64,000 nt of DNA, from assembly GCA_001464795.1 (NCBI GenBank), contig LNEB01000015.1, positions 310,001 through 374,000 on the forward strand. The letters run 5' to 3'. Positions 49,364-55,579 of this stretch are shown here, piece after piece. Position 1 is the stretch's first letter; each line of letters begins with the position of its first letter. The translations under genes were made by a program, and so were the position numbers. The notes under the pieces were generated by a model that worked only from the letters and a program-made list of their open reading frames with translations, ran no database searches and had not been told where the DNA came from. This stretch comes from Bdellovibrionales bacterium Ga0074139. Its GTDB lineage: Bacteria; Bdellovibrionota; Bdellovibrionia; Bdellovibrionales; Bdellovibrionaceae.

Positions 49364-50674
49364 TTAAGATTCTTTTTTTAATTTGGCTGATTCAACTTCA
49401 ACAACTTTTACTGTTTTCATCAAATGAGTAATCACTTTTTCCTCTGTTAAAGAGTAAGTGAGGCGGCTCATTTGTTCAGGTTTATTGTAAAAGTCTTGAA
49501 TCTTTTGAAGCTCAATTCCTGTCTGTGCAGCGTATTCATTGAATTTTTGGTCAACGTCTTCCTGAGTGCAAACCAATTCATGTTTTCTAGCGATGGCATC
49601 GATCAAAAAGCTAGATTGAATCATTTCTGTGGCCGAATTAGCAAAGTCAGAATCCCACTTAACAACATATTCAGCATAATCGGCGTCAGACATGCCTTGA
49701 TTCTTCATTCTTGTTTTGAAATCTTCGATTAATGCCTTTTTCTGTTCTTCCATCAGGCGTGGTGGCACTTCAATGGGATTTTCTTTTACTAGATTTTTGA
49801 TCAGGCGATTTTTAAAATCATCTTCAATTTTTTTGAGATCTGATTCAGACAAGTCTTTTTCAATGGTTTTCTTCAAACTTGCTAGATCCTGATCACCGCC
49901 GATGGATTTAATAAATTCATCAGTCAATTCTGGAAGTTCTTTTTTCTTCAAAGACTTCAAAGTGACTAAAAATTCCACGGGCTGACCTTCAAGTTCAGCT
50001 GCGTGGTAAGGTGTCGGGAACTGAAGTTTGATTGTTTTTTGTGCTCCGACTTTCATTCCAACGATACCATCTTCAAAACCATCAATAAATTGTTTAGATC
50101 CCAATTCCAAATTATGGTCTGTACCTTGTCCGCCGTCTAATTTCTTACCATTGACGGAACCATCGAAATCAATAACGGCCACATCACCCATTTGTGCTGG
50201 GCGATCTTCCAAAACAGGAACTGTGGAAGATTTTGAAGAGCGCAGGTTATTTAAAACCTCATCGACTCTTTTGGGATCGAAACTGTATTTTTCTTTTTCA
50301 ACAGTTAGACCTTCATAGTTCTTAAGTGTGATTTCAGGTCGAACGTCAAATTGAGCAGAGAACTTGAAGTCAGCTCCGTCGATGGGGTCTTGAAATTCAA
50401 ATTCAGGGTTTCCGATGGGGTCCAATTTGTGAGCACCCAATGCTTGGGCATAGTGAGTTTGGATAAGGTCTTGAACCACATCCATGCGAACGCGTTCGGT
50501 GTAAAGTGATTTGACCGTGGCCAAAGGCACCTTGCCTTTACGAAAACCCTTTAACTGCACATTTTTTTGAATGTCGTTAAAGTATTTTTGAAACGTTGTT
50601 TGTACAACGGCAGCGGGAATCTCGATATTCAAACGACGCTGGAGGCTAGAAAGGTTTTCAACGCTCGATTTCAT
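49364..50674 (-). CDS. tig: Trigger factor
   Basis: Ribosome-bound chaperone and peptidyl-prolyl isomerase. The ATG at 50674 has AGGAG upstream; the longer reading to 50755 begins with residues unlike the family. The ribosome-binding signature GFRKGKVPL is in the N-terminal domain. The PPIase domain (about 155-245) starts with DRPAQMGDVAVIDFDGSVNG. Length 436 equals the family. It is not next to clpP here, being separated by eight genes, although tig-clpP-clpX is a common order. Confidence 0.95.
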   Translation of the reverse strand: MKSSVENLSSLQRRLNIEIPAAVVQTTFQKYFNDIQKNVQLKGFRKGKVPLATVKSLYTERVRMDVVQDLIQTHYAQALGAHKLDPIGNPEFEFQDPIDGADFKFSAQFDVRPEITLKNYEGLTVEKEKYSFDPKRVDEVLNNLRSSKSSTVPVLEDRPAQMGDVAVIDFDGSVNGKKLDGGQGTDHNLELGSKQFIDGFEDGIVGMKVGAQKTIKLQFPTPYHAAELEGQPVEFLVTLKSLKKKELPELTDEFIKSIGGDQDLASLKKTIEKDLSESDLKKIEDDFKNRLIKNLVKENPIEVPPRLMEEQKKALIEDFKTRMKNQGMSDADYAEYVVKWDSDFANSATEMIQSSFLIDAIARKHELVCTQEDVDQKFNEYAAQTGIELQKIQDFYNKPEQMSRLTYSLTEEKVITHLMKTVKVVEVESAKLKKES

Positions 50675-50760
50675 GGTAGCTCCTGACATAAACTCTAAAG
50701 GAATTGAATGTTTAAAATGCTGTGGGATACTAGGTTTACACCTACAAAAAGGCAAGAAAT

Positions 50761-51630
50761 TTGACTACTGAAAAAACGGGCTCCTTGAAAGAAATACACT
50801 TTGTGACCGGTAAAGGTGGAGTCGGAAAATCCACAGCGGCTTTATTGTTAGCTCTCAAATTTGCTAATTCTGGAAAAAAAACTTTATTAGCTGAAATAGG
50901 GGATCGTAGTTTTTTTAGCCATTTCCTTACAAAGCCCATTCATTACCAGCCCCTAGAGGTTTCCTCGAACCTTGAAATCGCTCACTGGTCCGCTGAAGAG
51001 TGTTTAAAAAGTTATGCCTTATCACTGCTGAAGGTAGAGGCCCTGTACCGACTGTTTTTTGAAAACCCAGTGACAAGAAGTTTGATTCAAGTGGCACCGT
51101 CCTTGGCAGAACTTGCTGTAACCGGTCAAATTACAAGCTCTCCTCGCAATCATGGCCCCCACGGACAACATGAAATTTTGGTCATCGACGCCTATGCTTC
51201 AGGGCATTTTTTGAACCTCATCTGTGCACCCGAGGCCATGGGTGAAACCATCCAGTTGGGTCCCATGGGGCAGCAATCAAGAGAAATTCACAAAGTCTTT
51301 CAAAGCTCTGGAATATGCCGTCTTCATATCGTTAGCACACCTGAGGAATTACCGATATCTGAAGCCCTCGAGCTTTACGCTGATATCAAGAAAACTTTTG
51401 ATTGGCCAACGGAATTTATTCTTAATCGGTATCTGAATACGAATTTGGATTTTAATAAAATAAAAGAATCCAGCCTGATGCAAAAAGCCATTCGAGATAA
51501 GTTAATGGCTCAATCACAATCATTGAAAACACTGAACCAATCAGGTTTATCCACTCGCACAATTCCTCTTATTTCCTCTTTAAAAAGCATGAGTGATTTA
51601 AAGCAACTTCAGTTTGGTGAATTAAAATGA
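50761..51630 (+). CDS. ArsA/Get3-like ATPase, first of a pair
   Basis: 289-residue SIMIBI ATPase. Walker A KGGVGKST is at residues 18-25, with the signature lysine of the deviant P-loop. The middle carries VIDAYASGHFLNLICAP, equivalent to the family's DAPATGH switch. The C-terminal half has the TPEELPISEALEL pattern of bacterial ArsA homologues that occur in adjacent pairs. It starts with a TTG at 50761. A second paralogue follows with a four-base overlap. Arsenite export is unlikely, as no arsB/arsC/arsR is nearby. Confidence 0.82.
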   Translation: MTTEKTGSLKEIHFVTGKGGVGKSTAALLLALKFANSGKKTLLAEIGDRSFFSHFLTKPIHYQPLEVSSNLEIAHWSAEECLKSYALSLLKVEALYRLFFENPVTRSLIQVAPSLAELAVTGQITSSPRNHGPHGQHEILVIDAYASGHFLNLICAPEAMGETIQLGPMGQQSREIHKVFQSSGICRLHIVSTPEELPISEALELYADIKKTFDWPTEFILNRYLNTNLDFNKIKESSLMQKAIRDKLMAQSQSLKTLNQSGLSTRTIPLISSLKSMSDLKQLQFGELK

Positions 51631-52685
51631 AAAAGCCAACTCGCGTTTTCATACAAATGGGTCCCGGAGGAGTTGGGAAAACAACAGTGTCGGCTGCCTA
51701 TGGATTGCATTGGGCCATGCAAGGAAAAAAAGTTTTAGTCATGACGATTGATCCTGCAAGAAGACTGGCTCAAGCCTTAGGAATAGCGAACAACAATGGT
51801 ACTGTCAAAGTTCCCATAGGAAACATCAAAGGAGAACTTTACGCCACACTTCTGGATCACAGTGCTATTTTTGATTCCTTTATTTTGAAAATGTCGAACT
51901 CGCAAAATCAGCTAGCCGAAAAGCTTTTTAAAAATAAGCTTTATCAATCTTTAAAAAACAAGCTTCAAGGGTCTCAAGATTTTACGGCCTTAGTTGAACT
52001 TTATAATCAAGCCTCTTCGGGTGATTACGACATTGTCATTTTAGATACACCCCCTGCTCAACATGCTTGGCAGTTCTTAGAGTCCCCCGAAAAATTATCC
52101 AATCTATTCCGCGAAAAAGTGATGCGGTGGTTTCAATGGATGGGTGATCCAAAAGGATCAGTGGGACTTTGGAACAAAATTATGATCACCGGTACGCAAA
52201 AAGTAATGCAAGCTTTGCAAATATTAACTGGCCAAGAATTTATGAATCAGATTTCTGATTTTTTCAAAGCCATTCAATCTTTTCAGGTCCAACTGCGTGA
52301 TAAAATTGAAAATGCACAAAAACTTTTAAAAAGTGCACAAACAGAATTCACCTTGGTGACGACTCAAGATGAGCTAAAAATTCGTGAAACCATTGAATAC
52401 GCCAAAGAAATCGACAGTAAGGGTTATCACTTAAAAAGAATTATTCTGAACAGGGCGTGGCCAGAAAATAACTTAGATGATATTTCGTATTTATCAACGG
52501 TAGATCAAGCGGAAATTAAAAAAGTATTTACATTGCTTTCAGAGTCTCAAAAAATAAATAAGGCTCTGATGAATAATTGGCCCAAGGATGTTCAAATTTT
52601 AAAAATCTATGATACTTTAAAAAGTTCTCATGATCTTCAACGATTACAAGAGATGGCTCAAGATATTCAGGAGTCTGTAAAATGA
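51627..52685 (+). CDS. ArsA/Get3-like ATPase, second of a pair
   Basis: 352 residues, same superfamily. The P-loop reads GPGGVGKTT (residues 12-20): the intradimer signature lysine is replaced by proline. TIDPARRLAQALG follows (about 40-53), then IVILDTPPAQHAW as the switch II region. Pairing of a lysine-bearing and a lysine-lacking subunit suggests a heteromer in which only one protomer supplies that lysine; this is inference. It overlaps the next gene, a lipoprotein, by four bases. Confidence 0.82.
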   Translation: MKKPTRVFIQMGPGGVGKTTVSAAYGLHWAMQGKKVLVMTIDPARRLAQALGIANNNGTVKVPIGNIKGELYATLLDHSAIFDSFILKMSNSQNQLAEKLFKNKLYQSLKNKLQGSQDFTALVELYNQASSGDYDIVILDTPPAQHAWQFLESPEKLSNLFREKVMRWFQWMGDPKGSVGLWNKIMITGTQKVMQALQILTGQEFMNQISDFFKAIQSFQVQLRDKIENAQKLLKSAQTEFTLVTTQDELKIRETIEYAKEIDSKGYHLKRIILNRAWPENNLDDISYLSTVDQAEIKKVFTLLSESQKINKALMNNWPKDVQILKIYDTLKSSHDLQRLQEMAQDIQESVK

Positions 52686-53608
52686 AAATGATAATTTGGT
52701 TGTTTCCTCTATTGGTTTCTTGTCAGCACTTCAGTCAACAAATGAATGGTCAAAGTTATTTTGAAAATACTTGGCAAGCGGCCCAAGAACAACAAAGACA
52801 ACAAAATACCGAAGCATCAGAAGGTTTATTTAAAGAGATCTATTTGCTTGGGATTGACTCTTCGCCTCAGTACTCTACGTTGTCTTTATTTGAACTTGCA
52901 CAGATCAACGAAAGCAAAGGAAACTGGGAACTGGCTCTTTCACAATTAAAAGAATGCGAAACAAAAAAATCTTTTTTACCTTCAGTGAAGGCTGACCTTG
53001 AGCTTCCATCGCGAATAGCCGGAGCTTATGCAGCACTTGGTGAAGTGGAACTTTCTAATATTTATTCAAAAAAAGCGGAACAAGCTTTGCAAGTTTACTC
53101 ATCGCAGTTAAGACCAGACCTTCGAGCTGATTGGTGGGCAGAAACTTATTTTCGTATGGGCTCCATTCCCATTCAGGGAATGACAGAGCAAAATTGGTTG
53201 GCATACGCAAAAAGATTTGAAAGCTCACTGACGCATCTTATCCGTTCGATGGAATATTCAGATCCTAATTGGTCTTTAAAAAGTTTACTGCAAGCTGAAG
53301 ATTTTTTTAAAAAATCTTTAGAGTTTTCCAGTCTTGATCAAGAATTAAGTGAAGACAATTGGTGGATAAAACAACAATCCATTCGTGAAAAACTAGATAC
53401 TATGATTTTTTTAATTCAAAAAGTTAAAATCTGGAAGTTTAATCAAAATCAGCCATCACAATGGATTTCTCAATTCTATAAAAAAATTGATATTATCGAA
53501 TCTGAAGTTTTAAAAAGACGATCAAAATTTCAAGATACAGCTCCATTAACTCCAGAAAATTTAAGAAGAAAAAAAATTAAGCGTGAAGATCTAGAGGTTC
53601 TTTTATGA
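52682..53608 (+). CDS. Helical-repeat lipoprotein in the ArsA-pair operon
   Basis: 308 residues. A lipoprotein signal peptide with a standard lipobox (WLFPLLVSC, Cys15) is followed by a helix-rich body with tandem TPR-like helices (for example LSLFELAQINESKGNWELAL and GAYAALGEVELSNIYSKKAE). It was probably lipidated after Sec export. The four-base overlaps on both sides place it in a single transcript with the two ATPases and gshA. Function unknown. Confidence 0.72.
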   Translation: MKMIIWLFPLLVSCQHFSQQMNGQSYFENTWQAAQEQQRQQNTEASEGLFKEIYLLGIDSSPQYSTLSLFELAQINESKGNWELALSQLKECETKKSFLPSVKADLELPSRIAGAYAALGEVELSNIYSKKAEQALQVYSSQLRPDLRADWWAETYFRMGSIPIQGMTEQNWLAYAKRFESSLTHLIRSMEYSDPNWSLKSLLQAEDFFKKSLEFSSLDQELSEDNWWIKQQSIREKLDTMIFLIQKVKIWKFNQNQPSQWISQFYKKIDIIESEVLKRRSKFQDTAPLTPENLRRKKIKREDLEVLL

Positions 53609-54846
53609 TTCAAGATAGTTTACATCACTTAACAATTAAAAACAGTCAGCGCTTATGTGACTGGTTCGATCAGGAAATGGCAAAAAATGCATTTCCAATT
53701 TACTCAAGCTATGACATTCGTGACTCTGGCTATAAAGTGACCAATGTGGACGCGAATATTTTTCCTGCTGGATTTAATAATATTTGTCCTGCGGACCTTG
53801 AAAATATTCATGATCTCTTTTCTGAATATTTGACATCTCATTACAAAAATTTGCCTAAAAAAATTCTATTACTAACAGAGCAACACACGCAAAATCCCTA
53901 CTACTGGGATAATGTTTGGACTTTGATTCAAGCCTTGCAAGCAGCAGGTTGTGAGGTGAAGCCTGCAATTCCCTCAGCACTGGAAGCTAACCTTGTCATT
54001 CAGTCGGCTCGCGGCCATCAAGTCGAAGTCTTTAGTGCTCACGAAGACAGTACCATTTGGCAGCAGTACCAACCTGATCTTGTGATTTGCAACAATGACT
54101 TCTCAGAGTCATTTGATACTTGGGCTTCTCACTTTAAATCACCGATGAATCCCCCCAGGGAACTGGGTTGGTATCAAAGAAAAAAATCCAGATACTTTAA
54201 ACACTACAATGAAATTGTGAACGAATTTTCTGAAATCGCAGGTATTGATCCTTTCTTTATGCGTGTTGAAACGGAACTATTTCCAAAATTTGATATTAAT
54301 GATGAAAAAAGCCGTGAAGAATTATCAGACCGAGTCAGTGATTTTGTGAAAGTTTTAGCAGTTAAGTATCAACAAAATAACATTGATCAAAAACCCTTCG
54401 TTTTTGTTAAAAATAATGCAGGAACTTACGGATTGGCAGTTATTAAAGTTGGGGATCCCTCTGATATTAAGCAGTGGAGTTATAAATCCCGAAAAAAAAT
54501 GAAGGCCGCTAAAGGTGGGCGTGAAGTTGAAGAAGTGATCATCCAAGAAGGAATTCCATCCCGGGTGTTATCAGAAAGTGTTACCGCAGAGCCTGTTATC
54601 TACATGGTAGGTCACAATTTAGCAGGGGGATTCTTAAGAACTCATGCAGAGAAAGACTCCACGGAAAGTTTGAATAGTCCTGGTGCCATTTATAAAAAAC
54701 TTTGTATGTCAGATCTTTTGATAAAACCCCAGGACTGCCCGATGGAAAACGTTTACGGATGGTCGGCAAAGTTGGGACTTCTAGCTATTAGTCGTGAAAC
54801 TCAAGAAATGAATGTGCACTATAAGTCCTATTTATTAGGAAGCTAG
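53605..54846 (+). CDS. gshA: Glutamate--cysteine ligase (gshA, non-E. coli type)
   Basis: 413 residues. The motif RDSGYKVTNVDANIFPAGFNN (about 39-59) and KPFVFVKNNAGTYGLAV match the glutamate-cysteine ligase family known from Acidithiobacillus and delta/beta-proteobacteria (TIGR02049-type), which is unrelated at sequence level to E. coli GshA. It would make gamma-glutamylcysteine, the first step of glutathione synthesis. No gshB is in the window. Overlap ATGA with the lipoprotein gene makes it the fourth gene of the ArsA-pair unit. Confidence 0.85.
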   Translation: MIQDSLHHLTIKNSQRLCDWFDQEMAKNAFPIYSSYDIRDSGYKVTNVDANIFPAGFNNICPADLENIHDLFSEYLTSHYKNLPKKILLLTEQHTQNPYYWDNVWTLIQALQAAGCEVKPAIPSALEANLVIQSARGHQVEVFSAHEDSTIWQQYQPDLVICNNDFSESFDTWASHFKSPMNPPRELGWYQRKKSRYFKHYNEIVNEFSEIAGIDPFFMRVETELFPKFDINDEKSREELSDRVSDFVKVLAVKYQQNNIDQKPFVFVKNNAGTYGLAVIKVGDPSDIKQWSYKSRKKMKAAKGGREVEEVIIQEGIPSRVLSESVTAEPVIYMVGHNLAGGFLRTHAEKDSTESLNSPGAIYKKLCMSDLLIKPQDCPMENVYGWSAKLGLLAISRETQEMNVHYKSYLLGS

Positions 54847-54883: not shown

Positions 54884-55579
54884 ATGAAATCAATATTTGG
54901 TGCATGTTTGTCTTTGGCTGGCGGCTTAGCTGGCTTTTTATTATTTAGTTCTCAATTTCAAAGCCAAGAGCAAAAGCGAAGCCTGGCTTCGGTGAAGTCA
55001 CAATACGATCTGACTTGCCTTGAGGGTGAAAGTTTTGAAAAAGCCTATAAAGCCAGGCTTATCAGTGGGTTTAAAAGTTTCCGTAAAGATGGGAATTTAG
55101 GACTGGAAATTGGGCATTTCATTTTCTCTCCTAAGGGAACTGCTTCTACCACTGAATGTAAAGCAAAGCTTGAGCGAAATATCAGCTCAGCTTTTTCGGC
55201 CCGCAATCCAACCCAGAAAATGCTGTGTACAGATTATCCAAAAATAAAGATCAGCTTTGTTGCTAATGATGGAGCTATTAGTGGAGAAAAAAAACGCTTT
55301 GAAATATTAGCTGATTGTCAGGTTTCAAGTGATCTTTCGAAAACGGAAGCCATTTGGATACCGTGGGAAAAGTTATCCCAGGAAACACCGTTTGAGGGCG
55401 AGGCTCAATTTAATCAGCCGTCCAAAGTATCAGTTAAAACTGTTCACGTTAGTGATCAATGGCCCCAAAAATGGAGCCTTGATTCTATTCAGCTTGAAGG
55501 TTCTGCTGGGCAATTAACAATTACCCAAGATGAAATCCGAACAATTGCTGGTCGACCCATCATTTTCGATTTTCCGTAA
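54884..55579 (+). CDS. Membrane-anchored or exported protein of unknown function
   Basis: 231 residues. A hydrophobic N-terminal segment (GACLSLAGGLAGFLLF) acts as signal peptide or anchor, followed by a polar region with four or five cysteines. No domain recognised. It lies 37 bases after gshA, and the double terminator starts three bases after its stop codon. Confidence 0.65.
   Translation: MKSIFGACLSLAGGLAGFLLFSSQFQSQEQKRSLASVKSQYDLTCLEGESFEKAYKARLISGFKSFRKDGNLGLEIGHFIFSPKGTASTTECKAKLERNISSAFSARNPTQKMLCTDYPKIKISFVANDGAISGEKKRFEILADCQVSSDLSKTEAIWIPWEKLSQETPFEGEAQFNQPSKVSVKTVHVSDQWPQKWSLDSIQLEGSAGQLTITQDEIRTIAGRPIIFDFP

Follow-up and report, generated by a model that had tools for sequence, protein, structure and literature searches.

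A BagA/BagB-type ATPase pair in an operon with glutamate-cysteine ligase in the Bdellovibrionota and its possible link with thiol homeostasis

Results

Organization of the locus

The window analysed here is a 64,000-nucleotide stretch of DNA from Bdellovibrionales bacterium Ga0074139 (assembly GCA_001464795.1, contig LNEB01000015.1, positions 310,001 to 374,000 of the forward strand), and our subject is an operon at positions 50,761 to 54,846 of this window, which encodes two ArsA/Get3-like ATPases (BagA and BagB), a TPR-like putative lipoprotein and the glutamate-cysteine ligase GshA (Table 1). The four genes had been described in a first-pass annotation as overlapping, and this is borne out, since all of them lie on the forward strand and the open reading frame (ORF) calls share 4 base pairs (bp) at each junction of bagA, bagB, the lipoprotein gene and gshA. 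The encoded proteins are of known kinds; the new part is their thiol context, which extends across the phylum Bdellovibrionota, and we found no description of a bagAB-gshA operon in open-access full texts.

Table 1. Genes of the bagAB-gshA operon and its flanks (positions in the window)
Gene or product	Position	Strand	Features
bagA, ArsA/Get3-like ATPase (289 aa)	50761..51630	+	GKGGVGKS, intradimer lysine present, no DP switch-I motif; PF02374, 6bs3_A, A side of tree
bagB, ArsA/Get3-like ATPase (352 aa)	51627..52685	+	GPGGVGKT, intradimer lysine absent; DPARR switch I, DTPP switch II; PF02374, 6bs3_B
TPR-like putative lipoprotein (308 aa)	52682..53608	+	lipobox LVSC, Cys14; alignment of 35 homologues; all-helical model
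gshA, glutamate-cysteine ligase (413 aa)	53605..54846	+	PF08886/TIGR02049 type
tig (trigger factor), divergent neighbour outside the operon	49364..50755	-	Pfam; synteny control
231-aa protein	54884-55579	+

Relationship of the ATPases to mycobacterial BagA and BagB

Both ATPases match the Pfam family ArsA_ATPase (PF02374, cut-off 24.3 bits), the bagA product with 55.6 bits and the bagB product with 115.4 bits. Their closest sequences in the PDB are the two chains of one entry, 6bs3, the co-crystal of Mycobacterium tuberculosis BagA/BagB (Rv3679/Rv3680): 6bs3_A (Rv3679, E 1e-19) for the bagA product and 6bs3_B (Rv3680, E 2.4e-39) for the bagB product. We have also built a maximum-likelihood tree with IQ-TREE from 104 BagA and BagB rows, comprising up to two rows per phylum family, M. 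tuberculosis and named Actinomycetota, Myxococcota, Thermodesulfobacteriota and Pseudomonadota, with the window proteins left out, and found the A and B sequences separated by a single branch with a support of 100/100. A FastTree tree of 353 rows, this time with the window proteins included, gave a perfect A/B split as well (support 1.0). Since the split runs across phyla, the A/B duplication predates these phyla, and the window pair consists of one BagA and one BagB. The likeness to the paired mycobacterial ArsA homologues, at which the first-pass annotation had hinted, thus holds as orthology by the best PDB matches and by both trees, and the window ATPases are orthologues of mycobacterial BagA and BagB. 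Functional equivalence with the mycobacterial proteins is not claimed, because the NCBIfam equivalog cut-offs were missed, with 85.3 of 400 bits for BagA (NF053622) and 192.2 of 521 bits for BagB (NF053621).

A structural model of BagB (pLDDT 86) had its best fold match in 6bs3_B (Z 29.2), followed by Get3/TRC40 entries (Z up to 28.0) and bacterial ArsA (Z about 20-22), a ranking that would also suit a general Get3-like chaperone, as weighed in the Discussion.

To place the pair in its phylum, 144 genomes were sampled. Seven of them, having neither a listed place for BagB nor a GshA, gave no locus; 137 loci were read around bagB, or around gshA where bagB was missing, and 133 of these contain BagB. 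The locus counts below are from stop-to-stop ORFs, because the first gene calls had missed bagB or bagA in some loci of metagenome-assembled genomes (MAGs); a gene was counted as a downstream neighbour if it shares the strand of bagB and lies no more than 6.5 kb away, with identities taken from representatives. Loci, genomes and families are labelled L, G and f, respectively. The tandem arrangement is almost without exception, bagA being directly upstream in 132 of the 133 bagB loci, and the one remaining case (G097) is a contig end.

Asymmetry of the two nucleotide sites

The intradimer lysine was present in 124 of 124 BagA and in 0 of 124 BagB proteins among the adjacent pairs taken from gene calls in the phylum. 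The BagA motifs read GKGG[VTS]GK[ST] in 115 cases and GKGG[VT]GRTT in eight (all of family f16), and one has a miscalled start; the BagB count comprises 122 direct reads and a further two proteins, reading GTGGVGKT, whose starts had been miscalled. In BagB the position is occupied by Thr, Ser, Pro, Gly, Asn or Cys. The contrast first drawn for this locus, lysine in one ATPase and proline in the other, is therefore universal in these 124 pairs as far as the asymmetry goes, while the proline is merely one of several BagB residues.

The same pattern extends beyond the phylum. From a scan of named genomes we retained the 80 top-ranking relatives of BagB and picked the genes in a motif-aware manner, the first gene calls having missed many genes in the high-GC records. 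The position was not lysine in any of the 80 BagB proteins, and the lysine was present in BagA of all 57 pairs found. Of the 80 loci, 57 have A followed by B, five have B where the contig ends, and 18 are without a paired A; since a GKGG ORF is listed next to, or within, an over-long bagB ORF in about 12 of these 18, the figure of 57 is a lower bound. In a list otherwise made up of other lineages, one record titled as a Bifidobacterium breve MAG (L197) also contains a full-length relative of BagB (43% to the query), and this label may be wrong.

The remaining motifs are divided between the two proteins as well. D42, P43 and R46 of BagB are conserved in 100% of 123 aligned rows, M. tuberculosis included, and the DTPP switch II is nearly always present. 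In BagA nothing is conserved at the DP position, the switch II Asp is invariant and Asn218 nearly so; the roles of these BagA and BagB switch residues we take to be those of their Get3 counterparts. In family f16 (L169, L171-L176, L178) the P-loop Lys of BagA is replaced by Arg in 8/8 called proteins, and the intradimer Lys is retained. On a simple reading of these sequences, the main catalytic contribution of BagA would be the lysine that reaches the ATP of BagB.

Linkage with thiol genes across the phylum

GshA of the PF08886 type is found in 109 of the 144 genomes, and in 88 of these 109 gshA follows bagB on the same strand at a distance of 69-4007 bp, as counted from the best listed BagB matches. 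A linkage kept by this share of the GshA-bearing genomes is not chance. Among the 133 bagB loci, the downstream genes include gshA (88 loci), a gene for a gamma-lyase/synthase-type enzyme (CGL, 40), a cystathionine-beta-synthase-type gene (CBS, 37), the sulfate-entry gene cysZ (22) and gshB (two). At least one of these five sulfur/thiol genes occurs downstream of bagB in 102 of 133 loci and in 18 of 22 families. The gene link found in the window is conserved in relatives: the finding that would have spoken against the first-pass annotation, unlinked genes in related genomes, does not apply in 17 families, although f9, f15, f16 and f19 have no linked thiol gene.

The linkage is not confined to one gene. 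Eight f14 loci have the cystathionine genes (CBS/CGL) beside bagAB and no gshA there, and f10 has cysZ beside bagAB with gshA elsewhere, patterns that indicate an association with the pathway rather than with a single gene. As a control for ordinary synteny we used the trigger factor gene, which adjoins bagA in 39/39 loci of f1-f7, the order to which the window belongs, and in 0/94 loci elsewhere. Its adjacency is lost outside the order, and the thiol link is thus much longer lived than ordinary synteny.

Other neighbours of bagAB were seen as well. A PhaR-type polyhydroxybutyrate (PHB) accumulation regulator (PF07879) is encoded upstream of bagA in 33/33 f14 bagB loci (for example L059:5483-5878) and also in records of the Myxococcus group and of Desulfobacteraceae (L268, L207, L221, L202, L231 and L246). 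One f17 genome has a UPF0047/YjbQ gene between bagB and cysZ (L061:6870-7274, reverse strand), and in one f9 and one f11 locus an alpha/beta-hydrolase (lipase/thioesterase-like) gene precedes bagA (L097:8399-9235, reverse strand, and L055:3-485, forward strand), with other partners differing there.

GshA, the lipoprotein and the flanking genes

The window GshA passes the cut-offs of both models for this type of glutamate-cysteine ligase, with 408.6 bits for PF08886 (cut-off 25) and 302.1 bits for TIGR02049 (cut-off 293.9). The canonical GshB partner (PF02955) had no match in the window's genome, a result that speaks against glutathione proper as the product; the end thiol may be gamma-glutamylcysteine or a further product. 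A PF02955 match of some kind occurs in 121 of the 144 genomes of the phylum, but most of these matches are weak and, judging from their scores, probably RimK-like ATP-grasp proteins; an adjacent gshB is found in the two f17 genomes only.

The product of the third gene has a lipobox-type start, MKMIIWLFPLLVSC, whose Cys14 is nearly invariant (at least 90% of 35 aligned rows), and it reached the cut-off of no Pfam or NCBIfam family. In an AlphaFold model based on 35 sequences (pLDDT 89.9) the protein folds into a TPR-like superhelix that is all-helical. Its nearest relatives in a fold search against the PDB are TPR domains, none of them at a Foldseek E ≤ 0.001, a result that is not evidence of a new fold. 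The same operon slot is occupied in other families by proteins that score as TPR/BamD/YbgF-like.

On the upstream side, the true start of the divergent tig gene is probably near 50674. Downstream of gshA, the 231-aa protein has a hydrophobic N-terminal segment and does not reach the cut-off of any Pfam or NCBIfam model; in related loci its homologues again lie close to the operon (28 matches among the fetched loci).

Discussion

A possible one-site ATPase coupled to thiol homeostasis

The explanation that we tentatively favour, while granting that it may well prove wrong, is that BagA and BagB form a heterodimeric ATPase, only one of whose two sites is fully equipped, and that this ATPase is coupled to thiol homeostasis. 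The dimer would be that seen in the orthologous M. tuberculosis co-crystal 6bs3. BagB would hold the complete nucleotide site, with its P-loop, DP switch I and DTPP switch II, and BagA would donate its lysine across the dimer to the ATP held by BagB. The site of BagA itself has no DP motif and would receive no intradimer lysine, and would therefore be slow or play a structural part. By its Get3 fold, the pair might use ATP to capture and then release a client, either hydrophobic or from the envelope, perhaps together with the TPR lipoprotein, since the operon would supply this envelope protein as well as the enzyme that makes gamma-glutamylcysteine.

In such a scheme the pair would serve the homeostasis of cysteine and low-molecular-weight thiols and the defence against thiol-reactive stress. 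We are led to the thiol role because the pair is retained beside genes for sulfate entry (cysZ), for cysteine formation (cystathionine beta-synthase and the gamma-lyase-type enzyme) and for gshA, and because the mycobacterial orthologue reportedly protects from methylglyoxal-linked and nitric oxide toxicity. Methylglyoxal and nitric oxide both react with thiols. The part of the mycobacterial study considered here implicates bagAB in the protection of M. tuberculosis from glycerol-derived toxicity and from nitric oxide, and connects glycerol with methylglyoxal (PMC10597346). Mutants of Rv3679/Rv3680 also show altered antibiotic survival, to which the corresponding part of a second report adds no mechanism (PMC12216072).

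A number of observations weigh against this explanation. The linkage is guilt by association. No linked thiol gene was found in f9 (13 loci), f15 (two), f16 (nine) or f19 (one), and six further loci (f13, two; f14, three; f22, one) were without one too. Three f14 genomes of one genus (G060, G088 and G139; L141, L149 and L165) have a gshA-CBS-CGL operon with no bagAB there; G001, G010 and G017 are without both bagAB and GshA, and G119 is without GshA and has a weak ATPase match only. Outside the phylum, neither gshA nor cysZ occurs near bagAB in the 80 named loci, where the only sulfur genes matched nearby are a single gamma-lyase-type gene, in Anaeromyxobacter (L202), and a single CBS match, which is weak. 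PF08886 was matched in 0/20 such genomes, chosen mainly as non-actinobacterial; control genomes likewise gave no match, and the same model matched the 109 phylum genomes. As for the single site, the Arg in the f16 BagA P-loop can perhaps still bind phosphate, and a dispensable BagA site sits poorly with the ATP-binding motifs of both proteins, which are reportedly required in M. tuberculosis.

Alternative explanations

The alternative that survives best, and that we regard as a serious possibility though not one we would choose, is that BagAB is a general Get3-like chaperone for targeting or for the envelope, partnered in the envelope by the TPR lipoprotein, the thiol genes sharing only a promoter and an ancient operon history with it. 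The fold ranking of BagB agrees with this, as does the wide occurrence of bagAB without thiol genes. A TPR protein is encoded downstream of bagB in 61/133 phylum loci and also after bagB, on the same strand and within about 540 bp, in the myxobacterial/deltaproteobacterial loci L201, L202, L207 and L221, which have no gshA match; from the latter it looks as if the lipoprotein is an older companion and the thiol genes are later and phylum-specific. Shared history alone does not readily account for a linkage that takes in a whole pathway and recurs in varied combinations of gshA, cysZ, CBS, CGL and gshB, nor for the methylglyoxal and nitric oxide phenotype ascribed to the mycobacterial pair in the part of that study considered. 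The zinc CxxC of Get3 is missing too: any CxxC occurs in 3/123 BagB and 4/116 BagA rows. The absence of a conserved CxxC motif also removes a chaperone working by a CxxC redox switch, as in Get3, from consideration, and tail-anchor targeting is unsupported.

Next to be considered is that BagAB energises a CysZ-type sulfate/anion permease, as ArsA does ArsB, with thiol synthesis downstream of sulfate uptake, which we think improbable. The 22 loci with cysZ downstream of bagB, where it is the very next gene in f10 and two f2 loci, would fit such a role, and one CysZ is encoded elsewhere in the window's genome. CysZ is, however, outside the operon in f1, f13 and f14. BagAB is present in 13/13 f9 loci, yet the 107 genomes with a CysZ match include none from f9, and the f1 genomes G005, G086, G096 and G125 have BagAB and GshA with no CysZ match, which rules out CysZ as an obligatory partner.

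Export of arsenite, antimonite or thiol-arsenic conjugates is the least credible of the alternatives and is to be given hardly any weight: the ArsA_ATPase match, one SBF-family protein elsewhere in the genome (of the superfamily of Acr3, not shown to be Acr3) and the binding of arsenite by thiols speak for it, but ArsB (PF02040) has 0 matches in the genome (6/14 control genomes matched), no ars gene is among the proteins scanned in and around the operon, and the nearest PDB sequence is BagAB rather than ArsA, so that this export is without support, in line with the first-pass view that it does not explain the thiol link. A defence system was likewise rejected, as PADLOC gave weak P-loop matches only.

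Returning to the coupling of the one-site heterodimer to thiol homeostasis, a broader form of it would place BagAB, as the ATPase, in a conserved module of thiol/electrophile homeostasis. From Bdellovibrio-like predators to mycobacteria, this one-site heterodimer derived from Get3 would have the task of sustaining the low-molecular-weight thiol system during thiol-reactive stress, with cysteine and gamma-glutamylcysteine as the thiols here and others elsewhere. We consider this extension rather unlikely. If it were true, it would be the first functional assignment for a bacterial Get3-like pair. The mycobacterial BagA/BagB pair is described by stress phenotypes only in the parts of the literature considered, and the phylum-wide cysteine/gamma-glutamylcysteine operon offers a concrete hypothesis of its function, which is testable in laboratory strains of Bdellovibrio and in accord with the independent methylglyoxal and nitric oxide phenotype. 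The strict lysine asymmetry, together with the loss of the P-loop Lys in f16 BagA, also offers a clean test case for a one-site heterodimer among the SIMIBI-class ATPases.

Comparison with known systems

The closest known system is the M. tuberculosis BagA/BagB pair (PDB 6bs3/6bs4/6bs5), with which the window pair shares the tandem order of A then B, the lysine in A and its absence from B, the orthology seen in the tree and the BagB fold. The two differ in the BagB residue, which is Pro in the window and Ala in M. tuberculosis, and in the operon partners, which in the window are the TPR lipoprotein and gshA. With Get3/TRC40 the pair shares the fold (3zq6_B, Z 28.0; yeast Get3, about 25-26; Get3 entries in general, about 20-28) and the P-loop and switch motifs of BagB. 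A zinc-binding CxxC motif at the dimer is typical of eukaryotic Get3. Unlike Get3, which is one homodimer, BagAB is made of two unlike genes, and this motif is not conserved in it, the window proteins not being among the CxxC rows listed.

The ATPase of the ArsA arsenite pump belongs to the same superfamily and has the same fold (1f48, Z 19.9; 9nbw, Z 22.4), whereas BagAB is a pair of single-domain proteins, in an operon without ars genes and a genome without an ArsB match. ArsA homologues were surveyed by Castillo and Saier in 2010 (PMC2963123), and in the parts of that survey covered here a 357-aa homologue of Bdellovibrio bacteriovorus HD100 is placed in cluster 12 (Table 1 of that survey), the genome context is said to give no functional clue for clusters 8-13 (representatives of four of these six clusters having been analysed), and no thiol operon is described. 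The same parts describe ArsA homologues that occur with CstA/CstX or with gas-vesicle genes. To these the pair in the window is alike in that ArsA-type ATPases have been taken up by operons that have nothing to do with arsenic.

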